Made by a program: the position numbers and the translations under genes
The notes under the pieces: model-generated
What the model saw: only the letters and a program-made list of their open reading frames with translations
Told to the model about the DNA's origin: nothing
The model's database searches: none
Shown here: positions 1 to 60,425 of the stretch, piece by piece
Layout: each line of letters opens with the position of its first letter
Position numbering within the stretch: the first letter of the stretch is position 1
Source: Ancylostoma caninum
Lineage: Eukaryota > Nematoda > Chromadorea > Rhabditida > Ancylostomatidae
Reading direction: 5' to 3'
DNA: 64,000 nucleotides
Assembly: GCA_037903475.1 (NCBI GenBank)
Contig: JBAJFG010000591.1
Span: forward strand, 1-64,000

Positions 1-168
1 TGAGGATTGATGCCAACGTTTTTAAAATGAGGAGGGAGGGGCACTCAGACATTGTTTTGGCGATGAACACTACCATGCTCAGCAATGCACACATCTGCGC
101 ATTTTTGTTTCCCTCCATTCGTAATGAATGAGAAATGACCACGGCAGAAGCAGCCACTACTCAGACGA

Positions 169-349
169 GGTTGCACGAGATACGTTCCCCAATCACGGCC
201 AGAGCCTGCCGCGCACCGTCAATCCTCTCGCTCTCTGCGTCTCCGATTACTAACGGGTCCCTGTACTGCCTCCACCCACCACCCCCCTGTCTGTGCTCTA
301 GCCCCTCGCGGGCGCAGCGATGAAGGTGGGGAACGTATCTCATGCAATC
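169..349 (-). mobile_element. MULE-like MITE with 9-bp target duplication (left arm)
   Basis: This short element of about 180 bp has terminal inverted repeats of about 23 bp (GRTTGCAYGAGATACG core). It is flanked by CTCAGACGA (160-168) and CTCAGGCGA (350-358), a 9-bp duplication with one mismatch. Direct-repeat copy 2 has the empty site: a single TCGTCTGAG at 29560-29568. A 9-bp duplication is typical of Mutator-like elements. There is no coding capacity. Confidence 0.8.
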
Positions 350-1343
350 CTCAGGCGACTCTTCAAAATGTGGGGAAGGGAAGGGGTCAAAAATTCCGTA
401 TTAACTCGGATATGCCAGGTTCCTGGCAGTTCGCACATACATAATTAGCTTAGCTTGGAGCACTCACAAATGAGATGCTTGTCTTCATAGCAAGGGAGCT
501 TGGAAGCTCACGTTTCTTCATTGAGCCCTGTCTGGTGAAACGCACTACAGAGAGGGGCCAGATGAAAACTATTTCAAGGTTTATTAAGGAACAGTGGGAG
601 CGAAAGCTATTGCACCACAGGAAGATGGAGCCGCATCAAGTTTGCAGCGCGGCTGGAGGGGCGCTCTGATACTCGGACGAGAGCAGGTCTCCCCCTCTGC
701 TTATTTCTCTCACCTTTAGTTGCATGCAAATCCATAAAGGAAGTTGTGATGGAAGGAATAAAGCCGTAGTCCCGATCACAGCTGAGGACTAAAGCACCGA
801 GCTGATCTGTCGCGCGAAGAAGGTAGCGCGGCGCTGTTTCCATTTTCTACAGTGTAGCAACGATTGACCTTCCCTGTATTTTGTAGTAGATCCAGAGGAT
901 TGATATGTAGTTGAGCGTACCTTTAAATTTTATCAGTTGTTCAATAGAATTGAATTTTTTTCAAGCTGTTCGTCAATAAGGCAGTTTATCAACCACTGAA
1001 GAAGGAATCCATGGATTTCAGCGATCCCTTTTGACACGTCCGATACTGCAGTCATAGTGTGAATCGAGCGAAGCGGCAACGTCCCACATTTCTAGCCACC
1101 AACGTGACCAGTTCTGTTGATAAGATCGTACTGTTGCATGACATGCGCGCCATGTGGGTTCTTAGGATGACGGCTGTGATGAGTCAAACTATGCCGCCTG
1201 ATTCATCTTTGATACGATGGCGATCATGGCGTCGACAGAGAGATCTTCGGGACCATGACCAGGAATCTGGCACACCTATTGTCGGAGTCGGCTCAGAACC
1301 ACTTCAAGCTGTGAATGGAAACGAATTTGTTCGTAGTGAAATA

Positions 1344-1650
1344 TAAAGTGTGCAAAATCCGTTATGGTCAAGGGAATGCATGAAACACATTATGTTCATT
1401 ATTGGCACCTCTGCAACACGAATCTTGATGATTATGAAATGGCGCTCACTTCAACCGACAGAGGCAATAAGTTCAATCCGGACAAAAAACTCCACAGTGG
1501 AGCTGTTTACCAGAATTTAGTCAGGAATGGAATTCTGCCGGTTGGAGGGGGCGACATTTCATAATCATCAAGAATCGGGTTCCAGAGGTGCCAATAATAC
1601 ACATCATGTGTTTCATACACTCTTGACCATAATGGATTTCATACACTTTA
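1344..1650. repeat. Foldback element, about 307 bp (left arm)
   Basis: The two halves (about 1344-1463 and 1533-1650) are inverted copies of each other over about 118 bp with a short central loop. The termini read TAAAGTG and CACTTTA. No transposase is encoded. This is consistent with a MITE or foldback element. A mirror copy lies at 10182-10488 and a half copy at 28497-28680. Confidence 0.75.
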
Positions 1651-2083
1651 ACAATCAGGGTACAGCACTATGTGGTCAGTGTCGGTTGAGGAGTACTAAG
1701 TCCAGTCGGATTCCCGATAAGGGCTACTAAGTACCTACATACTAGGGTTCTTTCAGGAAAAGCATGTAGCGCTGAAAAAATGACTTAAATGACCGTTAAT
1801 GAGGCGACGAATGATGTTTCAGCAAGAAGTGCGTACCATTTAGCGAAGGCAGCCTAAATCATTTCAAATTCAAGCTAAAATCTTCGGAAAATCGATCTCA
1901 GTACGGAACTGTTTGATCTCGCTAGAATTCGTTGCAACTTGTTATAGGACCTGTCAGGTACAAGAAATTGTCACTGGAGCGTGTTTTCTTCTCAGACCCA
2001 GAATTTTTCCAGGAAAATTCTCTCGTTTGGAGAATTGTTCCGATACGCTGTCAACTGCAAGAAATGCGCCTAGGTGGCATCAC

Positions 2084-2255
2084 TCTCCCCCAAAGTGGGA
2101 TCTTTCGCTTTTGAGAAACCCTCTTCGTTTTTGAAAGAAAAAACGTCATCAATGGTCAAAAATGGTCAAAAATCACTTTTTGAGCGTTTTTGACGGCTTT
2201 TTTTTTCAAAAACGAAGACGGTTTCTCAAAAACAAAGTGTGCCACTTTGGGAGGA
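2084..2255. repeat. AT-rich foldback MITE, about 172 bp (left arm)
   Basis: The termini read CCCCCAAAGTGG and, inverted, CCTCCCAAAGTGG. Each is followed by similar inverted runs (GAGAAACC, TCTTCGTTTTTGAA). The centre has short direct repeats of TGGTCAAAAA. Non-coding. Confidence 0.7.
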
Positions 2256-2556
2256 TACTTGTTGGTATAGTGTGCATCAACAGTCAAAATTCCAACATGA
2301 TATGTATCCTACAGGTTGAGCAACACTTGATTATCACTGGAACGCACCAGAATGCAGGGTAGGGATGGAGTAAAACAACAGTGATCTTCAGGCACGATTT
2401 TGATGATCCTCCAGACGTGCCTCTCTGAAATCTGCTTGTGACTAACATCAGTAGACGGTTAGCGGTTGACTACGCTCCGGACATTGGTGCAAAGTCCCCG
2501 AATCTGCAGGAGTCTACTGAGTCCTGGTGGTCAATGACCACCTAGTGCTGTGCCCT

Positions 2557-3029
2557 GATCACAATGGTATACGTGATTCCATGTAGAACTGCCGAAAAAC
2601 GTCCTGATTTTTGAGGAACCTGTGGGCGGAGCCAGGTAGATTTCCAATTAATTCATTCCAGGAAGCGCACTTCTGGGGAAGTTTCCCCGTAAGAGTTCCC
2701 CATCAACTTGCTGACAGTGGAATCTGGGATCCATCTATGACTAACAAAGAGGTTCACGATGCGGAAGAACCCACCAATGCACAGGAACCAATGCGGGATT
2801 GCAGGCTTTCCGCATTTTATACTCCCTTGCTCGCCGCATGGAGCGCAGTTTCTATTCTGTTGGGGAGTGGATGAGGAACTCTCAAATACAAATTTTCTCA
2901 GAAGGTGCACTTCCTGGAGTGAATTATCGGGAAAGCTGCTTGGCTCCGCCCACAGGATCCTTGAAAATTTTGGCTCGGAAGTGGAGTTTTCCAGAAGTTT
3001 TGCAGGGAATGACGTATACCGGTGTGATC
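2557..3029. repeat. Foldback element with arms of about 165 bp (left arm)
   Basis: 2557-2717 is inverted at 2857-3029, including the shared block CTGTGGGCGGAGCCA and the outer GATCACA-GGTATACGT ends. The 140-bp centre is unrelated. The size and arm length fit a foldback or MITE-type element. Sequence like its right outer edge and flank (3022-3085) reappears at 28216-28285, directly after the Gypsy LTR. Confidence 0.75.
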
Positions 3030-3971
3030 GTCAGCTCTTGTAGATTCTTTTCATCCAGAAATCTCAAGAACGAATTCGAGGTGGGATGGTGCCTCTGAGG
3101 CCACCGTTACCAGCTGTGTGGCAGCGATCTATCATTGGCAATGACGGCAGAACATCAGATGAACATCAATCGTGAAGTTGTGAGAAAAGATTTCGATAAG
3201 AAGGAGCTTGATTTCTTCAGAAATGACGTCAAATGGACATTACAGATTGGGCTGTGCATCTGTTGTGACTGTGTCATACTTTGGTTTATTACTTAACCAA
3301 CACTTATCACAACAGAATACCCTAGGAAAACAAAAAGCAAGGTAAATTCGAAGTTTTTCATCGTCTCTGTCCCCTCGTACCTCTTCGGACCATGGCAGTC
3401 TCGAGCAATCCTACCTCTGACCTACTGAGTCGAAGTTGAGTGACTGTGTGTCCGCTGTTCTCTCCACTCGGCCATCTGTGCTGATTTCTCCAATTTTTCG
3501 ACCTCGATCATTTTTATAGTCATGCAGTAGTAGCCTTGATATCCTTGGCGTGCAAAAAGAGTTTACTGTTTGGAATGAATACAAACAGTTGCATCCGTTG
3601 AGAAGTATTGCCTTAATAGTCTACAAGTGATGGAAGGTGGTGCTCAAGGATTCCTATCAAGAAAAGACTGCGAAATTGTCGTGTGCGGCTATTGCATTCG
3701 TTCAATTCGTTGGCGAATTTTGTTGGATTTCTGTTGCTGTGGAATATTCTTAGATCCAATAGATGTATCCTATCCTGGCTTTATTTCAGGAGTGAGCGAC
3801 AATGTTAAGCAATTGCTCAGCTCTCTCCACAATTGTGGACTTGTGAACTAGGATTTATAAGCGCACTCTTGCGCTAGTTCACTTTTCAAAATATCATCTC
3901 CGATAAATGTTGTATATGCTGCTCTATGTCTGCTCTCCTCTGCTCTATGTCATCAGCATACTTGCGATATG

Positions 3972-7436: not shown

Positions 7437-8802
7437 TATGGCATTCGAGTAAGGGAATGTACTGCTGACTGTGCCAATGGAGCATGAATGATGTAATTGC
7501 GAATAGTGATAGCGCATTGGTAGACTCCTTCTGTGCAATATCTGTGGTGCCCATTGAAAGTCTCGAAACTTACTGTACATTGACGCCCAAATAACGAATG
7601 ATAATCAATATCCTCCTTCGTTATTTGAGATTTCTCAGTTGTGCTCGATGATCCACGAAGATTAGGAGAATTTCTGCCTGATTGTCAACACACCACTTTC
7701 TCATCTTTTCATGTAGCTTTTCTCTTGCCTACTTTCCGTTTCCTGCCAAAGTCTTGTTCTCTCTAATCTTTCGCGTTATTTACAATTGGAAGCAGCGAAA
7801 TTACATACATCCACCAGATCTCAAACCTCCGACACAACCGTTGAAGATAAGATTCGCAAAAATCCTATATATGTAATCGCATGCATGTGTTGAGTTTAGT
7901 ACAGTAGAGCAGCATATACAACATTTATCGGAGATGATATTTTGAAAAGTGAACTAGCGCAAGAGTGCGCTTATAAATCCTAGTTCACAAGTCCACAATT
8001 GTGGAGAGAGCTGAGCAATTGCTTAACATTGTCGCTCACTCCTGAAATAAAGCCAGGATAGGATACATCTATTGGATCTAAGAATATTCCACAGCAACAG
8101 AAATCCAACAAAATTCGCCAACGAATTGAACGAATGCAATAGCCGCACACGACAATTTCGCAGTCTTTTCTTGATAGGAATCCTTGAGCACCACCTTCCA
8201 TCACTTGTAGACTATTAAGGCAATACTTCTCAACGGATGCAACTGTTTGTATTCATTCCAAACAGTAAACTCTTTTTGCACGCCAAGGATATCAAGGCTA
8301 CTACTGCATGACTATAAAAATGATCGAGGTCGAAAAATTGGAGAAATCAGCACAGATGGCCGAGTGGAGAGAACAGCGGACACACAGTCACTCAACTTCG
8401 ACTCAGTAGGTCAGAGGTAGGATTGCTCGAGACTGCCATGGTACCGAAGAGGTACGAGGGGACAGAGACGATGAAAAACTTCGAATTTACCTTGCTTTTT
8501 GTTTTCCTAGGGTATTCTGTTGTGATAAGTGTTGGTTAAGTAATAAACCAAAGTATGACACAGTCACAACAGATGCACAGCCCAATCTGTAATGTCCATT
8601 TGACGTCATTTCTGAAGAAATCAAGCTCCTTCTTATCGAAATCTTTTCTCACAACTTCACGATTGATGTTCATCTGATGTTCTGCCGTCATTGCCAATGA
8701 TAGATCGCTGCCACACAGCTGGTAACGGTGGCCTCAGAGGCACCATCCCACCTCGAATTCGTTCTTGAGATTTCTGGATGAAAAGAATCTACAAGAGCTG
8801 AC

Positions 8803-9275
8803 GATCACACCGGTATACGTCATTCCCTGCAAAACTTCTGGAAAACTCCACTTCCGAGCCAAAATTTTCAAGGATCCTGTGGGCGGAGCCAAGCAGCTTT
8901 CCCGATAATTCACTCCAGGAAGTGCACCTTCTGAGAAAATTTGTATTTGAGAGTTCCTCATCCACTCCCCAACAGAATAGAAACTGCGCTCCATGCGGCG
9001 AGCAAGGGAGTATAAAATGCGGAAAGCCTGCAATCCCGCATTGGTTCCTGTGCATTGGTGGGTTCTTCCGCATCGTGAACCTCTTTGTTAGTCATAGATG
9101 GATCCCAGATTCCACTGTCAGCAAGTTGATGGGGAACTCTTACGGGGAAACTTCCCCAGAAGTGCGCTTCCTGGAATGAATTAATTGGAAATCTACCTGG
9201 CTCCGCCCACAGGTTCCTCAAAAATCAGGACGTTTTTCGGCAGTTCTACATGGAATCACGTATACCATTGTGATC
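8803..9275. repeat. Foldback element with arms of about 165 bp (right arm)
   Basis: This is the mirror copy of 2557-3029. The overlapping ORFs seen here on both strands come from the inverted structure and are not genes. Confidence 0.75.
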
Positions 9276-9576
9276 AGGGCACAGCACTAGGTGGTCATTG
9301 ACCACCAGGACTCAGTAGACTCCTGCAGATTCGGGGACTTTGCACCAATGTCCGGAGCGTAGTCAACCGCTAACCGTCTACTGATGTTAGTCACAAGCAG
9401 ATTTCAGAGAGGCACGTCTGGAGGATCATCAAAATCGTGCCTGAAGATCACTGTTGTTTTACTCCATCCCTACCCTGCATTCTGGTGCGTTCCAGTGATA
9501 ATCAAGTGTTGCTCAACCTGTAGGATACATATCATGTTGGAATTTTGACTGTTGATGCACACTATACCAACAAGTA

Positions 9577-9748
9577 TCCTCCCAAAGTGGCACACTTTGT
9601 TTTTGAGAAACCGTCTTCGTTTTTGAAAAAAAAAGCCGTCAAAAACGCTCAAAAAGTGATTTTTGACCATTTTTGACCATTGATGACGTTTTTTCTTTCA
9701 AAAACGAAGAGGGTTTCTCAAAAGCGAAAGATCCCACTTTGGGGGAGA
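9577..9748. repeat. AT-rich foldback MITE, about 172 bp (right arm)
   Basis: This is the mirror copy of 2084-2255 in the right palindrome arm, with the same AAAGTGG-bearing inverted ends. Confidence 0.7.
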
Positions 9749-10181
9749 GTGATGCCACCTAGGCGCATTTCTTGCAGTTGACAGCGTATCGGAACAATTC
9801 TCCAAACGAGAGAATTTTCCTGGAAAAATTCTGGGTCTGAGAAGAAAACACGCTCCAGTGACAATTTCTTGTACCTGACAGGTCCTATAACAAGTTGCAA
9901 CGAATTCTAGCGAGATCAAACAGTTCCGTACTGAGATCGATTTTCCGAAGATTTTAGCTTGAATTTGAAATGATTTAGGCTGCCTTCGCTAAATGGTACG
10001 CACTTCTTGCTGAAACATCATTCGTCGCCTCATTAACGGTCATTTAAGTCATTTTTTCAGCGCTACATGCTTTTCCTGAAAGAACCCTAGTATGTAGGTA
10101 CTTAGTAGCCCTTATCGGGAATCCGACTGGACTTAGTACTCCTCAACCGACACTGACCACATAGTGCTGTACCCTGATTGT

Positions 10182-10488
10182 TAAAGTGTATGAAATCCAT
10201 TATGGTCAAGAGTGTATGAAACACATGATGTGTATTATTGGCACCTCTGGTATCCGATTCTTGATGATTATGAAATGTCGCCGCCTCCAACCGGCAGAAT
10301 TCCATTCCTGACTAAATTCTGGTAAACAGCTCCACTGTGGAGTTTTTTGTCCGGATTGAACTTATTGCCTCTGTCGGTTGAAGTGAGCGCCATTTCATAA
10401 TCATCAAGATTCGTGTTGCAGAGGTGCCGATAATGAACATAATGTGTTTCATGCATTCCCTTGACCATAACGGATTTTGTACACTTTA
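10182..10488. repeat. Foldback element, about 307 bp (right arm)
   Basis: This is the mirror of 1344-1650, with the same TAAAGTG/CACTTTA termini and a long internal inverted repeat. Its centre is where homology with direct-repeat copy 2 begins. Confidence 0.75.
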
Positions 10489-11475
10489 TATTTCACTACG
10501 AACAAATTCGTTTCCATTCACAGGTTGAAGTGGTTCTGAGCCGACTCCGACAATAGGTGTGCCAGATTCCTGGTCATGGTCCCGAAGATCTCTCTGTCGA
10601 CGCCGTGATCGCCATCGTATCAAAGATGAATCAGGCGGCATAGTTTGACTCATCACAGCCGTCATCCTAAGAACCCACATGGCGCGCATGTCATGCAACA
10701 GTACGATCTTATCAACAGAACTGGTCACGTTGGTGGCCAGAAATGTGGGACCTTGCCGCTTCGCTCGATTCACACTATGACTGCAGTATCGGACGTGTCA
10801 AAAGGGATCGCTGAAATCCATGGATTCCTTCTTCAGTGGTTGATAAACTGCCTTATTGACGAACAGCTTGAAAAAAATTCAATCTACTAACAACTGTATA
10901 AACTTCTCAGACGCTCAAACTACATATTAACTCCTATCTACTACAAAATACAGGGAAGGTCAATCGTTGCTACACTGTAGAAAATGGAAACAGCGCCGCG
11001 CTACCTTCTTCGCGCGACGGATCAGCTCGGTGCTTTAGTCCTCAGCTGTGATCGGGACTACGGCTTTATTCCTTCCATCACAACTTCCTTTATGGATTTG
11101 CATGCAACTAAAGGTGAGAGAAATAAGCAGAGGGGGAGACCTGCTCTCGCCCGAGTATCAGAGCGCCCCTCCAGCCGCGCTGCAAAGTTGATGCGGCTCC
11201 ATCTTCCTGTGGTGCAATAGCTTTCGCTCCCACTGTTCCTTAATTAACCTTGAAATAGTTTTCGAGCTTGAACTAAATCATCAGCATAACCAAGACAGGG
11301 CTCAATGAAGACGCTTAGCTTCCAAGCTCCCTTGCTATGAAGACAAGCATCTCATTTGTGAGTGCTCCAAGCTAAGCTAATTATGTATGTGCGGACTGCC
11401 AGGAACCTGGCATATCCGAGTTAATACGGAATTTTTGACCCCTTTCCTTCCCCACATTTTGAAGACTCGCCTGAG

Positions 11476-11655
11476 GATTGCATGAGATACGTTCCCCACC
11501 TTCATCGCTGCGCCCGCGAGGGGCTAGAGCACAGACAGGGGGTGGTGGGTGGAGGCAGTACAGGGACCCGTTAGTAATCGGAGACGCAGAGAGCGAGAGG
11601 ATTGACGGTGCGCCGCAGGCTCTGGCCGTGATTGGGGAACGTATCTCGTGCAACC
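11476..11655 (+). mobile_element. MULE-like MITE with 9-bp target duplication (right arm)
   Basis: This is the mirror copy of the element at 169-349. It is flanked by TCGCCTGAG (11467-11475) and TCGTCTGAG (11656-11664). Its presence in both arms and absence at 29560-29568 means it inserted after the direct duplication split but before, or spread by conversion with, the palindrome arms. Confidence 0.8.
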
Positions 11656-12112
11656 TCGTCTGAGTAGTGGCTGCTTCTGCCGTGGTCATTTCTCATTCAT
11701 TACGAATGGAGGGAAATAAAAATGCGCAGATGTGTGCATTGCTGAGCATGGTAGTGTTGTAGTGTTCATCGCCAAAACAATGTCTGAGTGCCCCTCCCTC
11801 CTCATTTTAAAAACATTGGCATGAATCCTCAGACTATTTGGATCAGAGATTTTGCCGACGTTGAAGAAACTTTACTGGAATCACTATTTGTTTTGAGATT
11901 TTTTCACCTTGGTTGCGGACACGGTGGAAGAATAGCGAACCACTAGTACCAAACCCGTGCTCCCGAGGATTTGTAAGGTGCCCTAAAAGGTTTTGATCTA
12001 TGTGAGCAAGCCCGTTCGTGATGGCGATGCACTCATCTTTCCTATTCACTCTTTGATTTTTCCGTGATCCAAACCGCCTCGTAAGCCCTGCGTGCTATAA
12101 ATTTGGGCTCAC

Positions 12113-17054: not shown

Positions 17055-17399
17055 TCATACTTCTTCTTAATTGGCAGTTCATGTGTGTGTGTGTGTGCAC
17101 GAGAACCAGCCATCGAAAACGGAAAATACCTACACCATTGCGTTCAGCGCATCGAGCTATGTACGAAAATGTGGTAAATTTCGATTTTTATTTTGAATTA
17201 GAGGTGTTTCGGGCCACGCCAGTCATGTTCAGACATGTTAATGTCCGACTGTTGTTTTCATCACAGTCGGAATGAAGATAGGCCTGTGATCACAGAACCG
17301 TATAAAAGGAGAGAGACGGATAGGTTGCCTTTATAACGAAGAGGAGGAACGAGGCGGACGAGCAACGACGAGGATGAGGATTAGGCCTTAGTGTAGTCT

Positions 17400-18690
17400 T
17401 GGAGGTGGGCTGGGGGTGTGATAAGGATGCTCCGGCGTCCATAAGTGAGGAAACGTCTGAAGTCAAGTCCAACGGCGTGATAAGGGAGCGCCGCCATCCA
17501 AAAGCGGGAAGACACCTGGAGTCGGGTCCAACGGTGTGATAAGGGTGCGCCGGCGTCCAAAAGTGGGGAAACGCTTGGAGTCGGGTCCAACGGTGTGATA
17601 AGGGTGTGCCGGCGTCGAAAAGTGGGAAACGCCTGGAGTCGGGTCCAAACGGTGTGATAAGGGTGCGCCGGCGTCGAAAAGTGGGAAACGCCTGGAGTCG
17701 GGTCCAACGTGTGATAAGGGTGCGCCGGCGTCGAAAAGTGGGGAAACGGAGTCGGGTCCAACGGTGTGATAAGGGTGCGCCGGCGTCGAAAAGTGGAGAA
17801 ACGCCTGGAGTCGGGTCCAACGGTGTGATAAGGGTGTGCCGGCGTCGAAAAGTGGGAAAACGCCCAGAGTCGGGTCCAACGGTGTGATAAGGGTGCGCCG
17901 GCGTCCAAAGTGGGGAAACGCTTGGAGTCGGGTCCAACGGTGTGATAAGGGTGCGCCGGCGTCGAAAAGTGGAGAAACGCCTGGAGTCGGGTCCAACGGT
18001 GTGATAAGGGTGTGCCGGCGTCGAAAAGTGGGAAAACGCCTGGAGTCGGGTCCAACGGTGTGATAAGGGTGCGCCGGCGTCGAAAGTGGGGAAACGCAGG
18101 AGTGGGTCCAACGGCGTGATAAGGGTGTGCCGGCGTCTAAAAGTGGGGAAACGCGTGGAGTCGGGTCCAACGGTGTGATAAGGGTGCGCGGCGTCCAAAA
18201 GTGGGAAACGCCTGGAGTCGGGTCCAACGGTGTGATAAGGGTGCGCCGGCGACCAAAAGTGAAACGCCTGGAGTCGGGTCCAACGGTGTGATAAGGGTGC
18301 GCCGGTTTCCGAAAGTGGGGAAACGCGTGGAGTTGGGTCCAACGGCGTGACGCCTGGAGTCGGGTCCAACGGTGTGATAAGGGTGCGCTGGCGTCCAAAA
18401 GTGGTGAAACGCCTGGAGTCGGGTCCAACGGTGTGATAAGGGTGTGCCGGTTTCCGAAAGTGGGGAAACGCGTGGAGTTGGGTCCAACGGCGTGATAAGG
18501 GTGCGTCGGCGTCCAAAAGCGGGGAAACGCGTGGAGTCCAAAGGTGTGATAAGGGTGCGCCTGCTTCCGAAAGTGGGAAAACGCCTGGAGTCGGGTCCAA
18601 CGGCGTGACAAGTGTGCGCCGGCGTCCAAAACGGGAAGAACCTTTGGAGGCAGGTTCCAACGGTGAGATAAGGGTGCAGCGGTGTTCAGG
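17400..18690. repeat. 59-bp minisatellite inside the Helitron, about 22 units
   Basis: This is a tandem array of a unit of about 59 bp containing GTCCAACGGTGTGATAAGGG, then GCGCCGGCGTC, then GTGGGGAAACGC. Units vary from about 54 to 60 bp, with one short unit near 18340. Because the unit lacks stops in the minus frames, long repetitive ORFs appear; these are by-products and not genes. Internal tandem arrays are known in several non-autonomous Helitron families. Confidence 0.95.
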
Positions 18691-18915
18691 TCCAATCCCA
18701 GTTTGCACTCATTCGGTCAATTTTTACTATTGACTTCAACCGAAATGCGGCACCACAAATTGTTGGAAAGGAGCTGTCCATAGTGGGTCAATGGTTCCAT
18801 GAACCGCGGTAAAGAATGCTTCTCTGTGGATGGTGTCTGTTCATCCATCTGCATTAATCTTATCTGAGGACAATGAAAATATGCGAGCGAAGCGAGCACG
18901 AAAAGAAGCCTGAGA

Positions 18916-18933
18916 GTCCGGCGTTAGCCGGAC
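18916..18933 (+). other. Helitron 3-prime hairpin
   Basis: A 7-bp GC stem (GTCCGGC/GCCGGAC) with a GTTA loop is followed by GATCAGG and the terminal CTGG at 18941-18944. A longer outer pairing (AGCCTGA/TCAGGCT) surrounds it. In Helitrons this hairpin is thought to act as the stop signal for rolling-circle replication. Confidence 0.85.
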
Positions 18934-19399
18934 GATCAGGCTGGTCATATCATAATTTGTAAAAAATCAAGTGTTGCTCTAGGAGTAGTTGTACCAGAAC
19001 GATTAAAGCTGGGTGTCGCTGTGAACAAAATGAATGAAAATGATGAGAACAAGCTGTCACAAGTTCTCAAAGCTTATCACGTCATTCGAGTAAAATAACG
19101 TGCTGGCAGAGGATCAGTTGTACGCCGAAAGCTCTTGGGACTGAGGTCGCGGCGGCAGCATCGCTATAAAGTACGTGGTAGGCCTTGTGCTTCCACGATC
19201 AATGCTTTATTTGGTGTCATCATACAGGTTTCATGAAGAACATTGTTTCTAAATCGTAGAACCTGTTCCTCTACTTTAAAACAACTCACCGAAGTGTAAA
19301 TTGGTGATTTTCGCGTTCATTATACCGGAGGTTTTGGGACAATTCGCAAATGGAGGCGGAATACCAGCAAGATGGCCAACAGCACAACATACTGCCAAA

Positions 19400-24831: not shown

Positions 24832-25420
24832 CCCGCTATCGATATTGTCGTAAAGCGGGAAGAGAACTTCACGTAAATGTATGCCAGTATAAGACATAGG
24901 GAAACGTGATCTACCCACAAAGATTAGCCATTATTTCGAATCATCTTTCAGGGGAGCAACAGGAGAGAAAAAAGACTGAAGCTAAGAAAGCATTCACCGA
25001 TCACGTGGACATCTTCTGCGTTACCACGTGGAATAGCAGTGTTGCATCTCATTTGTTGTCAGAGCATTAGAAATCAATCAACGTGCTTCCTCAGATTAAA
25101 AGAAAACAATCATGTTTAACTCAATGCTCCTCCTGAAGTGTGTTCAAAAGTCTAAAGTCCATTATCGTCGATTTTTTTGAAATCTTCACAAGTTTTTTTA
25201 AACCTTGTGTAAACCACCCACACAGCACTGTGCGTATGTAAATTGTCTTTGATAGCCTTATGTAATATCACTTGAGTAGCAATTTTAACTTTCAATTTTC
25301 ATTCTGAACGTCCTTGGGAAAATAAATTTTGAAGGTTAGGTTCGAACGTGCTGCACAAACGGAGAGCAGCAGCAAGCTGTCATAGTCGGAAATTAAATCC
25401 ATGCTATTATACATATCAGT

Positions 25421-26111: not shown

Positions 26112-26315
26112 AACCATTAACTTTGCGAAAAGAAAGGGTTCAAAACGGATTTTGTCACTTTTGCAAGGTAAAAAATTACACAGTCTGCATGAATGGTTGT
26201 AAGACCGACTGGGTCCACTACGTTATAAGAAGGTTTTCCATTGGTGGATGGCTCGTTTATGGGGTAAATCCACAGAAAAAGCACGTGCTCAAGAGGGTGA
26301 AACACCTCAGCACAT
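26112..26315 (-). pseudogene. Partial exon-like ORF, copy 1 (cut by Gypsy fragment)
   Basis: This matches the start of 47606-48013 over FHPLEHVLFLWIYP, NEPSTNGKPSYNVVDPVGLT and TIHADC. It then diverges, because copy 2 has an extra block of about 240 bp. The upstream part is replaced by the retrotransposon fragment at 26316, so the gene, if it was one, is broken here. Confidence 0.4.
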
Positions 26316-28030
26316 AGCTACGGTCAGATCGAGAAAGAGGGACTCGCTCCGATATTCGCTGTAAGGAAGTACCATCGTTACATATATGGACGTCGATTCA
26401 AGCTCCTTACAGATTACAAACCGTTGCTGCACTTTTTCGGACCGAAGATGGTGCCCGTGTACACGGCGAATCGACTGCAACGATGGAAGCTCATACTCCT
26501 CGGATATGATTTTGATCTTGAATATCAGAAGACGACCGAATTCGGACAAGCCGACGTCTTGTCACGTCTGATCCTTCCAAGACCAACTCAGACGGAAGAT
26601 ATTGTGATAGCCAAAATTGAACAGGACATTCTAGCCATTCAAGCTGCTGCAATGAATGCATTGCCCGTGACCAGGAGTGCGATTGAAGAAGAGTCCAGGA
26701 AAGACAAGAAGATATCGCAGGTCATACAGATGCTCCAAACAGGAGCATGTCCTAGCAAGCCTAAGGAAGAAATCGGCAGCTGGAATGCTCTGAGCCAAGC
26801 ACTGTCAGTGGAAGACGGATCTCTTCCACTGACATATTATCTGTATTTTGTTCACAGAATCGTCATTCCCATATCACTCCGAGAAGCAGTTTTGAAACAA
26901 CTGCACGAAGGACATCCCGGAAAGACAAGAATGAAGATGCTCGCCAGAGGATACGTGTACTGGACGAACATCAACCGAGACATCGAAGAAAACGTGCGCC
27001 ACTGTCGCAACTGTCAAGAGGCTGCCAAGATGCCAAGGAAAACAGTTCTGAATTCATGGACCACAGAGAAGAAACCGTGGGACCGAATTCATATCGACTA
27101 TGCTGGACCACTACATGGGAAAATGTACCTTGTGGTGATACCGATGCATATTCTAAGTGGCCGGAAGTGTTCGAGATGTCGTCGTCGTCGTCAACCACAG
27201 CAACGTTAAGAGAACTCAGAATGTTGTTCGCACGATTCGGAAATCCAAGAGCGATCGTGTCAGACAATGGAACGCAGTTCACAGCGAAGGAGTTCCAGGA
27301 ATTCTGTGACAAGCAAGGAATCGAGCATGTTCGCTCGCCGCCGTTCCATCCACAATCCAATGGGCAAGCAGAACGCTTTGTGGATACCCTGAAAAGAACC
27401 TTTCAGGAGATTAAGAAGGGAGGGACGTCGGAGAAGCTTGCCGAACTTCTGCAGTGCTATTGACGAACGCCATGTGCGTCCACACCAGGACATCTCTCTC
27501 CAGCAGAGTTGTTCCTAGGGCGTCAGATGAGAACGCCGTTGATGCTGCTGAAGGAATCAGCGAAAGAAGGAGGAGCACGCAATGTCAGAATGGAAGAACA
27601 GTTCAATCGTCATCAAGGGGCACAGGAAAGATCATATCAGAGGGAAGACCGCGTATACGTTCGTGACTACCGCCACGGACGCGAGAAGTGGCTTCCAGCT
27701 CGTGTGAAGAAACGCTACGGATGAGCCGTGTACGATGTGCTGACGGAAGAAGGCGATTTGTGGAGAAGACACGCAAATCAGATGCGTGGAGAAGAGCAGC
27801 ACTGGGTAATCTGCGAGAACACTGACGCTTTCGACTTGCCGTTCCATCAAAGAGACCGACGGTACAAGGACGTGGGAGAGACGATCACCGACGTCAAGGA
27901 CAACGCCGAGGATCGAGAAACAGCCAACGCGCAGCCGCCGACAACGACCCGATCAGCTCGACAACGCCGTCCACCGAGCCGATTGCTAGTCGACCCGAAG
28001 ATGAAGACGTACGCTACGCGTTCATGTTAG
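26316..28030 (+). pseudogene. Ty3/Gypsy retrotransposon pol fragment (RNase H and integrase)
   Basis: The reading frame opens at the first base with the C-terminal part of RNase H (SYGQIEKEGLAPIFAV, LLTDYKPLLHFFG, then ADVLSRL). A linker and the integrase zinc-binding motif follow (HEGHPGK at about 26904, CRNC at about 27007). The integrase core comes next: IHIDYAGPL with the first Asp, IVSDNGTQF with the second, and PQSNGQAERF with the Glu. Frame changes occur at about 27135 and 27463, and an in-frame TGA lies at 27722. The C-terminal tail ends with TAG at 28030. Gag, protease, reverse transcriptase and the 5-prime LTR are absent. It is a 5-prime-truncated, inactive copy. Confidence 0.93.
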
Positions 28031-32392: not shown

Positions 32393-35012
32393 AGTGTAGC
32401 AAACTAATAAAACAGGGATCATACTAGACGCAAAATCAGTGGTATACTATGCATGGAGGAGAAGGTATAAGTTATTGTACAACGCTTGCTCATGTATTTC
32501 TCCGCTAAAAAACTTACGTTTTGATGTGCTATCTTGGGTGTCAAACAGAAAAAGCTTTGAAATATTATACTTCGAATAAAGAGTGGGTTTTTTCAGAGGG
32601 CATACATTTTTGGAAGATTCGGGTCACAATGATGATTTTAACCACAGAATCAAAACAATTTTCGAAGCGAGCTTCACTGTTCGGTTTGGAAAGTGCAAGA
32701 AGGTCACGTTCCAAGGGTTCCCACGATTCTTCACAAAGACGATCAGATGGGAGGGGAATTTGAGACTACTTCTAAACCACATGGTAGCCAATCTTCATCA
32801 CACTTGCTTTCGAGAAATGTTTGTTCTAGTCATCAAGACAGCAATTAGCGATCTGATTTGATAGGATCACTTGACCAAAAATGCTACATAATAGCTTTAG
32901 ATTAAATCGGCTAGGATATGCGCTGATAGTGTATCTCTAACTATAGGGCTCGGTCTTCTCATCCAAGCAAGTTTCGCAACAGTCTTATTTGGTGATCTTG
33001 CAAACAGCGGTTCCCCCGGATTTTGTTCAATCATTTAGTAATAGTGATCAAGAAAACGAGCTGATGCTCATTTGCACCTGGAAACGTTTCAAGACACTTT
33101 TGACACTGTTCCATTCGTTGTGTTACTCAGGAACTGTGCAATCAGTGCCGGCACAACAAATCTGCATTAAAGCTACGTGCCGAAATTTTCCGCCTTTTTG
33201 CAAGTTTCCAGGGCGAATTTTCGATCAGAAATAGTTTAACTCCGACATTTTAGAATGAGCTAAAAAGCATGTTAGCATTACAGAGAAATATGTGAGCAAG
33301 CTGACTATGTGTTATAACTTGTGTTGCTCTATACGACCGTAATCAAATGGAAAAAATGAGCTTACTTTCTTGCGATTAAGGTAGGGATGGTGGTAAAATG
33401 TCTCAAGATCCACTGTGTATCTGAGATGATCTTCATTGTCGAAATGTCGCTCTTGTTCCCCAACTACTTTCACTTTCGCTACTGAAAAAGGCCATTCTTC
33501 TAGCTGTATAATACACCACAACTATGTGCTCATCGTTGTACAAAACAAGAAACTGAAAATAGCAGCACAACCAGAAATATAACCCTATTTGTCTTACCAT
33601 CACATATCTTTTACGAAATGAACGAGGGTTTTTCTCAGAGAAATCACGACATTGTGAACCGAAATAGTGGATTACCTTCGCCTTAAGCACGTTGTGGATT
33701 TTTGCATTTTTCTCTGCAAGGAGAATTTCCCCTGTGACAAAGCTTCTCATCTCATTACCTTAGCTTTGCTGGATATTTTATTGCAGTTGTGGTTGGGACA
33801 GGTCGTGGAAAATTTCTTGTCGTAGTTTCGGAAGGATGTCTGTGCAAGGGCTGCTTATGTAGCGTGATCGCACATTAAAAACTACCGCCATACTCGCATT
33901 GCGGATGTTTGGCACCTCCAGTTAAATTATTCTTTCCACATTTCGCCGCAAAGACGGCATGAAACTCTGTACGAGTATATCGATGCAGTGTTGTTTGTAT
34001 ACCTCCGCCCAGTCACAACTGTTTTTTTTTCTGTTGTTGGAGTACGCTGGTTTCTCATTCGGTATCAAAGCCATCATAAAAGAAGTTGTCATTCCGTGGT
34101 ACAGAGAAATTTAGTCGATGCAAGATTTTTCATAATCCATAACTTCTCCACTCTTCTTAATTTTTTTTTGAAAATGAAAAATTGAACACTAACTGCTTAA
34201 TATTAAAGGCACTGATGAACGCTATACTGTTGCTCTTTCAGCTAACACAAACAATCAAGGATAGGTTCCCAATAACACGTGCAAAATGATGAAAAAGACA
34301 GCGTGCATTTATCTCAGACAATGGAGCGGGCTGAACTCAAAGTAAAGCGAATAGACGGAGCCATTCTCCACCTGCTAGCCAAATGTGAGCAGTAACATGT
34401 CCCATATCACTTATTAACTCAGCACCTGCCGTAATTCTCATTTTACGCATTTTAAACTCGTCAGAGCCTGTAAAATAGTCCCAATAATTCAAGGAAAGGC
34501 GGAAGCGAAATTGGTGATTGCCTTTGCTTTCACAACTGTGCAAACCTCATAATTACAGGGGAATCTGAGAGAGCAAGACTATAGCACACTTCACAGCGAT
34601 TTAGAGGTAGCGACCATACATCTAAAGCGGCTTCCATACATTTTCCGATTCGCGGCGCAGCGCTAGGAGTGAGCCGCGGGAATCGCTCTGAAAGTTGCCT
34701 TGGATTTGCCGCGCGGCGACGCATACCCCAGACCTTTCTGCTCTGCGATTCGCGAGCCAGCTCGCAAAATGCCGCGGAGGCCTCGTGCGTGACAAGATCT
34801 CTGGAGGCCCCCTGCTCGCGGCACTTGTCGCGCAAGCTCGCTCGGCGTTGTCGCGTTCTATCCTTCACCATAGCGCGGTAAAACTCTGAGACCCACTTTA
34901 ACCATTTTCGTGTTCCTATGCCAGCACGATATTCAATGCAAATTCTATGATAAGACCTGCAGCATTTTGTTTCAACAAGCACATTGTCGATGCTCAAGAT
35001 GAAAAGCCTATA
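32393..35012. other. Unit A remainder, copy 2, no firm gene
   Basis: This is collinear with 14801-17054 but with two extra blocks (about 33507-33650 and 34000-34250) absent from copy 1. The second block is bounded by TTGTTTGT and ACAAACAA, possibly an element with short inverted ends. Base 35012/35013 is the empty Helitron target. Confidence 0.5.
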
Positions 35013-35622
35013 TCATATCATAATTTGTAAAAAATCAGGTCTTGGTATAGGAGTAGTTGCACCAGAACGATTGAAGCTGGGTGTCGCTGTGAACAAAATG
35101 AATGAAAATGATGAGAACAAGCTGTCACAAGTTCTCAAAGCTTATCAAGTCATTCGAGTAAAATAACGTGCTGGCAGAGGATCAGTTGTACGCCGAAAGC
35201 ACTTGGAACTGAGGTCGCAGCGGCAGCATCGCTATAAAGTACGCTGTAGGCTTTGTGCTTCCACGATCAATGCTTCATTTGGTGTCATACAGGTTTCATG
35301 AAGAACAATGTTTCTAAATCGTTGACTGTTGATGACAGACGATAAATTGCAGTAGAACACCACAATGAAATGTCTACATATTCTCTTCAACATAATTGGG
35401 ATCCGAACCAAGGGGCACACCTCTTTACATATTTTGTGACACAATCTCACAGCAATCTTGGAACTAGGTTCGACTCTGTATGAACCTTTTGCACTACCTT
35501 AAAGCCACTCACCGAAGTGTAAATTTGTGATTTTCGCCTTCATTATACCGGAGGTTTTGGGACAATTCGCAAATGGAGGCGGAATACCAGCAAGATGGCC
35601 AACACCACAACATGCTGCCAAA

Positions 35623-45063: not shown

Positions 45064-45821
45064 TCTTACTCTATATAAAGCGCAGACCCCCCCATCGCCG
45101 CGCGAGGGATGACAGGTCACGCTGTCATTGATCCACTCGCCTCGCCCCACCTCTTTTGCCCGCCGCCACGGGCTCAATTGCGAAAATTGACACGCCCAAT
45201 GACACGCCCATGTATATGTATGTGTACAACATGGAAATCTTCAATTAGGACGTCCAATTTGCAACGAAAACGGAATATCTTTGATCTTTAAAGCAGAATA
45301 GGAGAACCAATGATGAAGCGAGTGTGATTTCGCAATCAGAAACGTGAATCATCCAAATACAGCAGAGTTGTACGGAAATTTTCACCGCACTCCTTCTAAA
45401 GCATTAAGTAGTAATAGCAATTAGAAATTAACGGTCAGGGGAACAAATGGTGCACTCTATGAGCTTAATATTTTGCTTACAAAGTAGGAATAGAACGTTT
45501 ACGCACTTTTTTCCTGTTACAACCTGATTGGGCCCGAACCATAACGATTTGGACTTCCAGCGCTATCACAAATGAAAAAGACTTGACCACGTGAGGATCT
45601 GTGTTTCCACTCATAAAACGCACCATGTAGGAGCTCCTTATATTGAACATAGTAAGAGTTAACCTCCAAACCGTTTAGGAGCTATGCAGTTTCGCAGAAA
45701 ATCACTGTCATCCGCGAAGCGCGGCGAAGCTGCGCTTCGTGTGTCTTGAGTTTACCTAGCCCTGAGGTAACGTGGCACACGGGTCCGAGTCAGAGCGCCG
45801 CGAAGCGGCGCTCTGGCTCGG
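45064..45821 (+). mobile_element. Helitron-like insertion, 758 bp, atypical 3-prime end
   Basis: Present only in copy 2. It starts TCTTACTCTATATAAAGCGC after A (45063) and ends ...GGCTCGG before T (45822). Copy 1 at about 25404-25410 shows the uninterrupted target with no duplication. A 17-nt hairpin, GCGCCG-CGAAG-CGGCGC, lies 10 nt before the end, as in Helitrons. The terminal bases are CTCGG and not the usual CTRR. A second hairpin (CGAAGCGC/GCGCTTCG) lies at 45713-45739. No coding capacity. Confidence 0.65.
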
Positions 45822-59382: not shown

Positions 59383-59534
59383 GGCCATGACGTCACCTGT
59401 CGGCGAAGGGACCATCATCCGCGGGCAGGTTGCCGGGCAACGGTGCCCCGTGGCGAAAGGGGCGGGCTGGACGCGCCGCGTGCCTCATGCGCGGCGGCGC
59501 AGAGCGAGGGCCAGTTACCTGCCGGCCTGCCGAG

Positions 59535-60425
59535 ATGGATGGCGGCAAGCTAGCGTCCGCTATTTCCATGGAATCGCTCAATTCCGTCAGTACCGAGTCC
59601 TGCTCGCAGGTACGCACTCTGTTCGTGTCTGGTCTGCCGATGGATGCGAAGCCTCGGGAGCTTTACCTGTTATTCCGTGCCTACCGCGGCTACGAGAGCT
59701 CTCTGTTGAAAATGACGGCGAAGAACGGAAAACCGACGTCACCGGTGGGTTTCGTGACGTTTCAAACCAGTAAGGATGCAGACGACGCTCGCAAAGCACT
59801 GCAAGGAGTGCGTTTCGATCCGGACTGCGCGCAGGTACTTCGTCTTGAGCTCGCCAAGTCGAATACGAAGGTCAGTCGGCCGAAACAGTCACCTCCGCCC
59901 GTTATTCCTATTGCGGCCCCCTCCCTGCAGACGATGCCACAGTTTCTGGCCCCCCTGCAGCCTGCCGAAGCGATCGTTCTCGACCAACACCCCCTACTTC
60001 TGGACCAACATCAGCTGCTCTCCCTTAGTCTTCCTCGATTCCCTACTGCTCAATCTCTTCCTCTTGCTGGTATTCTGCCTTCTGATGCCGCCGCCTATCA
60101 CCAGAATGCTGCTATATTCCAGGCCGCTTTGGGGCTCGGGGCGCAGAACCCCGCGCTCCAGGGCTGCTCCACGTTGTTTGTTGCTAATTTGAGTCCCGGT
60201 GTCACCGAAGACGAGTTGCGGTCTGTATTCAAGGCATTTGCTGGCTTCACGCGACTCCGAATGCACACCAAGAACGGCTCTTCAGTTGCTTTCATCGAGT
60301 ACTCGTCGCTGGCATCAGCAACGAGTGCGATGATGGCCTTGCAGGGCTTCCAGCTCGGCTCATCAGAACGTGGTGGTTTACGGATCGAGTACGCTCGCAA
60401 TAAGATGGCTGACGTGAACGGCTGA
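59535..60425 (+). CDS. mec-8: MEC-8/couch-potato-type double-RRM RNA-binding protein, intronless
   Basis: The 296-residue protein has two RNA recognition motifs. RRM1 is about residues 26-106 (RNP2 LFVSGL at 29-34, RNP1 PVGFVTF at 70-76). RRM2 is about 213-290 (RNP2 LFVANL at 214-219, RNP1 SVAFIEY at 250-256). A linker rich in Leu, Pro and Gln lies between them. The arrangement and length match C. elegans MEC-8 (about 312 residues), a nuclear regulator of alternative splicing needed for touch neurons and muscle attachment. The start is placed at the ATG after CCGAG because MDGGKLAS begins a family-like N-terminus; an in-frame ATG at 59484 is possible. The coding region is GC-rich and uninterrupted, whereas the worm gene has several introns, so this is either a retrogene or a gene that lost its introns. 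The frame is intact, which suggests function. Confidence 0.85.

Follow-up and report, generated by a model that had tools for sequence, protein, structure and literature searches.

A Helitron family that disperses a 59-bp tandem repeat in the genome of Ancylostoma caninum

Structure of the element and its termini

The window analyzed here, a stretch of 64,000 nucleotides from the hookworm Ancylostoma caninum (positions 1 to 64,000 of contig JBAJFG010000591.1; C231:1-64000 in the genome searched), contains a genuine Helitron of 1,890 bp (17055..18944, + strand), one of a large family that disperses a 59-bp tandem repeat in the genome. The family displays the features by which Helitrons are recognized: a TC start, a CTRR end preceded by a hairpin, insertion between A and T, no target duplication, and a RepHel partner with matching ends. 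We regard it as almost certain that the window copy is a non-autonomous hookworm Helitron inserted between A and T, and that its array is older than the split between autonomous and non-autonomous forms and spreads with the element.

The element opens with TCATACTTC directly after an A and closes with CTGG (18941..18944, + strand) directly before a T. The 25 bases of its 5′ terminus (TCATACTTCTTCTTAATTGGCAGTT; 17055..17079, +) belong to a left module (17055..17414, +) that also features a (TG)n microsatellite (17082..17097, +; extended by 4 bp in the autonomous partner described below) and a TATA-like sequence, GTATAAAAGG (17300..17309, +), which has a similar counterpart in the partner and may act as a promoter. 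The left module is followed by the 59-bp minisatellite array of about 21.6 units (17415..18688, +) and a right module of 256 bp (18689..18944, +). With 1,274 bp the array makes up 67% of the element, close to the figure of about 70% given in a preliminary description of the window.

The 3′ hairpin consists of two parts (18907..18942, +). Its inner part, GTCCGGC-GTTA-GCCGGAC (18916-18933), has a 7-bp stem and a 4-nt loop and stops 11 nt short of the last base, whereas the outer 7-bp stem (18907-18913/18936-18942) includes the CT of the terminal CTGG. The hairpin folds with −18.5 kcal/mol (z −5.3), a value equaled by 1 of 200 shuffled sequences. When the whole 64-kb window was scanned for perfect stems of 7 bp or more located 8–15 nt upstream of CTRR|T, the only match was the 3′ hairpin of the element; 20 simulated windows gave three matches in all (0.15 per window).

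The empty site in the paralogous segment

Two paralogous segments lie in the window, at about 12.8–26.3 kb and 30.4–48.0 kb, and the 1,890-bp insertion is found only in the first. The blocks beside the insertion site are 82% (upstream) and 93% (downstream) identical. At the corresponding position of the second segment we confirmed the intact A|T site (35012..35013, no strand), from which the preliminary description had derived both the ends of the element and the absence of a target duplication. Both statements hold for the genomic copies described below, but the window alone left them ambiguous: the left flank and the right flank, each matched to the empty site, have 5 bp (TCATA) in common there, and the window by itself is therefore equally compatible with a 5-bp target duplication.

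A transposon of another class, running from CTTCTT to CTGG and flanked by a duplicated TCATA, would account for the TCATA at both ends in the window and for the empty site. We rejected this candidate, which is next to inconceivable, since TCATA belongs to the element in its genomic copies. At unrelated sites it is kept at 15 of 15 visible 5′ ends, whatever follows the 3′ end; among 47 complete copies, only its third base varies, being A in 43; and no copy of the 47 shares more than 3 bp of host flank. Moreover, inspection of the two ends by eye reveals no terminal inverted repeat.

The empty site could also have arisen through loss of an older insertion by a deletion between the two copies of TCATA, in which case the paralog would not represent the state before insertion, although the element would still be a Helitron. 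Such a deletion would yield the identical sequence, and with just two copies of the site in the window the direction of change is not fixed. However, it requires an exact restoration of A|T, and precise loss is not generally expected of Helitrons. We consider this history improbable, and the ends of the family are in any case proved by other copies, independently of the window site.

The two paralogous segments form a tandem segmental duplication with 79–96% identity by block. Besides the two insertions (the Helitron and a second one described under the other features of the window), ten more length differences of 144–2,651 bp were listed between them.

Copies in the genome and target site

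We searched the genome (G000; 347.9 Mb, 638 contigs) with the last 105 bp of the element plus 5 bp of flank and obtained 40 scored matches, the best 40 of 1,480 candidates. Thirty loci, including the window's own, were cut out; the 3′ end is followed by T in all 30, and A precedes each of the 15 visible 5′ ends. The exact 25-base 5′ end occurs at 145 places in the genome, the window's included, and the exact 3′ end, counted where TA or TT comes next, at 414 places, with no match for the reversed-pattern control in the first count or for the control in the second. Thus, the shared 3′ end is commoner than the exact 5′ end of the window copy (414 versus 145). In the viral contigs the exact 3′ end was not found.

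For a detailed comparison, stretches from 78 loci and from the window were collected, 79 in all, and 20 were removed by hand, either as repeats or in favor of a longer stretch. The remaining 59 comprise 47 complete copies, the window's own included, with the same two ends, and 12 stretches without the whole 3′ end. The TC start and the CTGG end are invariant in all 47 complete copies, and every one of the last 40 bases is identical in at least 45 of them. The base before the element is A in 45 copies and G in two; the base after it is T in all 47. Host flanks share 0 bp in 35 copies, 2 bp in 10, and 3 bp in two. AT content is higher past the 3′ end (positions +2 to +8, 261/329) than before the 5′ end (positions −8 to −2, 216/329). 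These results bear out the termini, the hairpin 11 nt upstream, and the A|T insertion reported in the preliminary description, as well as its expectation that copies elsewhere have CTGG|T as their end and arrays of various lengths.

Two of the collected loci, C269:375464-375572 and C269:400792-400900 (L005 and L006), lie in opposite orientation within the same host flanks and probably represent a duplicated or inverted-repeat segment instead of two insertions.

A candidate autonomous partner

A search of the genome for the Helitron Rep domain PF14214 gave 96 matches, 19 of which were found with an open frame of 1,025–2,359 amino acids. The best of the matches is on contig C39, where an exact 3′ end follows 3.6 kb downstream, and it belongs to a complete autonomous RepHel element of 8,405 bp with matching ends, the array, and an open frame (C39:462739-471143, − strand); the existence of a Helitron with Rep and helicase domains and the same 3′ end had been anticipated in the earlier work. 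The partner starts with A|TCTTACTTCTTC, which differs by one mismatch from the 25-base 5′ end of the window copy, and is flanked by ...ACA|TCTTAC at the 5′ end and CTGG|TAAATT at the 3′ end. Its left module is 87.5% identical to that of the window copy over 368 bp, and its last 62 bp are 88.7% identical. Its array comprises 27.3 units (1,611 bp). About 0.9 kb later begins a stop-to-stop frame of 1,554 amino acids, free of stops, that matches PF14214 (Helitron_like_N, 3.6e-65) and PIF1 (8e-55) and contains HAH at residues 631–633 and a KYLYKYVYKG stretch near residue 766, both of which we take to be Helitron Rep motifs. Downstream of the RepHel gene, degenerate relics of the array can be recognized (score 110, compared with at most 30 in 60 shuffles). 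When 12 PF14214 matches (contigs C1–C53) were compared by eye with 100 listed 3′ ends of the 414, only the one on C39 had an end within 10 kb.

Helentrons also exist in short forms (HINEs) that, in the passages of PMC7492417 drawn on here, combine an array in the center with microsatellites in the modules beside it and a 3′ palindrome, as the hookworm element does. That the latter is a Helentron nevertheless seems most improbable, because it is inserted at A|T and not TT, ends with CTGG, and has its hairpin 11 nt upstream, and because none of the partner's 10 Pfam matches is to an endonuclease domain.

Origin and spread of the array

The preliminary description had seen the minisatellite as the element's own cargo. 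The array indeed spreads with the element, but because the autonomous partner carries the same 59-bp array, it stems from the autonomous lineage and was not acquired by the window copy. In the mechanism that we consider most likely for the Helitron, a RepHel protein of the partner's kind would cut at TC and at CTGG, and the element would be copied through a rolling circle and then inserted at A|T. Such a mechanism has been worked out for Helraiser. The short form probably originated through a deletion, between the array-like stretches that flank the gene, in which the gene was lost. On our reading, the array was in place before the autonomous and non-autonomous forms diverged, and it spreads with the element.

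Alternatively, the array might be a dispersed satellite that was captured by the short Helitron and, separately, by its partner, a notion to which array-like stretches in the protein models of three Ancylostoma ceylanicum genes lend some color. A double capture is nonetheless very unlikely: the partner has its left module, the junction of this module with the array, and the arrangement of the two in common with the short form, and degenerate relics also lie downstream of the RepHel gene. A common origin of the array in the autonomous lineage remains our preferred reading.

Several points weigh against the account given here. Three of the 145 exact 5′ ends follow G (the remainder follow A), which leaves the A|T rule of the preliminary description nearly, but not wholly, clean at the 5′ side, as do the two complete copies after G. 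The 47 complete copies were picked by a good match to the 3′ end or by an exact 5′ end and are no random sample. Only the last 62 bp of the right module match the partner, and its first 194 bp have no match on C39, so that another source copy may be involved. Finally, the exact 3′ variant of the partner occurs once in the genome, and since, in addition, the shared parts are just 87–89% identical, the partner may not be the actual mover of the family.

Other readings of the array concern its sequence. A 471-amino acid frame across the array has no Pfam match, and protein coding was rejected; the frame has at least four protein matches (7,998 candidates scored), to A. ceylanicum gene models at three genes and in their array-like parts. 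No RNA family reached its gathering score in the window. In the autonomous form, the array lies upstream of the RepHel gene and includes 20 copies of TGATAAG, presumably a motif of GATA-type factors. In a bolder and weaker reading, the array would be a putative bank of binding sites for such factors. Constraint on these sites was rejected, as TGATAAG is no more conserved than its neighbors (seventh of 59 seven-mers), and no passage on GATA sites turned up in the portions of the literature consulted for it.

Variation of the array

The array spans 3.9–42.3 units of 59 bp among the 47 complete copies. In 40 of them the left module measures at most 400 bp (356–387 bp) and the right module at most 300 bp (195–289 bp); the other seven carry extra DNA, in five cases beside the (TG)n tract. 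Total length in the 40 ordinary copies varies with a standard deviation of 503 bp, as does array length, compared with 15 bp for the non-array parts (r 0.9996). Copies L013 and L032, for example, have modules that are 99.8% identical and arrays of 495 and 2,255 bp, whereas identical arrays are found in the separate insertions that make up the pairs L005/L013 and L017/L045, which shows that movement can copy an array faithfully.

Arrays could be classed by their first and by their last unit, and the two classes agree in 29 of the 30 copies classed at both edges (Fisher 1.5e-7, computed on related copies that are not independent); 10 of the 40 copies were unclassable. Modules are more similar in pairs of the same first-unit class (0.963, 321 pairs) than in the others (0.900, 459 pairs). 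Taken together, the two results indicate that the array edges are carried along with the element. They persist, while units in the interior continue to be gained and lost. Pairs with modules at least 98% identical have the same first unit in 29 of 84 cases and the same last unit in 47, compared with 9 of 84 for the middle unit. When all pairs of the 40 copies are compared, however, units one and two at the first edge differ by 0.167 and 0.135 and interior units by 0.103, the higher value at the first edge being due to the existence of two edge classes; the second and third units from the array end differ by 0.095 and 0.111. Blocks of three to four consecutive units recur 13, 14, and 24 units away in L032, and L038 has one repeated block, three units away; none were found in the arrays of L035 and L040. 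The earlier proposal that the array expands on a mobile element and is spread by it accords with these data.

For the 24 pairs whose module identity reaches 99% or more, arrays differ by a median of 17 units, and the bands of falling identity that follow give medians of 8, 3, 8, and 10 units (60, 207, 236, and 253 pairs). As the medians do not rise with divergence, the difference between arrays does not simply grow with age. Closer copies have a weak tendency toward closer arrays (module identity versus unit difference, rho −0.20, reached in 4 of 500 permutations). Assembly error may contribute to the length differences.

It is tempting to ask whether arrays change in length chiefly through the movement cycle itself, by rolling-circle copying or single-strand slippage, in which case Helitrons would make satellites and not merely carry them. 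The large unit differences in near-identical pairs and the changing interior between persistent edges speak for this. Against it, two of the 24 closest pairs are separate insertions with identical arrays, so that length need not change with movement, and the data offer no clear clock by which change during movement could be told from change in place. On balance we think this rather unlikely.

In one copy (L033), an internal stretch at element positions 1113-1175 is 75% like the copy's own 3′ end and is perhaps a nested related Helitron.

Other features of the window

A second TC...A|T insertion without duplication (45064-45821) is located in the other paralog, with its empty site at 25406/25407. 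It ends with GGCTCGG, which is not CTRR, and a 17-bp hairpin reaches its last base. It has 145 genome matches; among the best 40 of 583 candidates scored, 35 of the other 39 stop at most 1 base from the same end, and four run about 10 bases on. Many copies repeat their last 74–90 bp in tandem, 11 times at C75:2221562-2222574. Elsewhere, the window comprises a 3.9-kb inverted repeat with 98.2% identity (1-3926 and 7905-11831), a retroelement pol fragment with RNase H, integrase zinc-binding, and integrase core domains (26301-27463), and an RRM gene (59475-60422) that is 99% identical over 99% of its length to ANCCEY_12224 of A. ceylanicum.

Comparison with known systems

Elements of this kind are known from other nematodes, and the hookworm family looks new; no description of it was found among the titles and opening abstracts searched. 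Within one genome it provides the full set of ends, target rule, candidate autonomous partner, and dozens of copies with about 4–42 units, which makes the growth of Helitron-borne satellites, during transposition or after it, directly testable.

The closest nematode parallel is Caenorhabditis elegans, for which the sections of PMC4595182 cited here describe 345 satellites in six families that are propagated by Helitrons, and report that 94.7% of the large families with repeats over 22 bases are species-specific. The hookworm repeat, with a 59-bp unit, is likewise spread by a Helitron. Helitrons of C. elegans and other Caenorhabditis with clustered heat-shock elements similarly carry a short repeat in autonomous and non-autonomous forms alike, as presented in part of PMC6927752, whereas we claim no regulatory role for the hookworm array. 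According to a review (PMC9071541), Helitron rolling-circle replication can create long tandem tracts.

Outside nematodes, Cg_HINE of Crassostrea gigas, as far as the excerpts of PMC7492417 extend, resembles the hookworm element in its two modules around an array, its microsatellites, its 3′ palindrome, and its uninterrupted sites. It differs in being of the Helentron type, with a TT target and subterminal inverted repeats, and no autonomous partner could be related to it there, in contrast to the candidate found for the hookworm family. Helibat and Helraiser, in the portion of PMC4778049 considered, share with the hookworm family the TC start, the CTRR end, a palindrome 11 nt from the end, an A|T target that is not absolute, and an AT-rich 3′ side. 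The hookworm family is distinguished from them by CTGG in place of CTAG, by an extra outer stem reaching as far as the CT of the terminus, and by the array that it carries.
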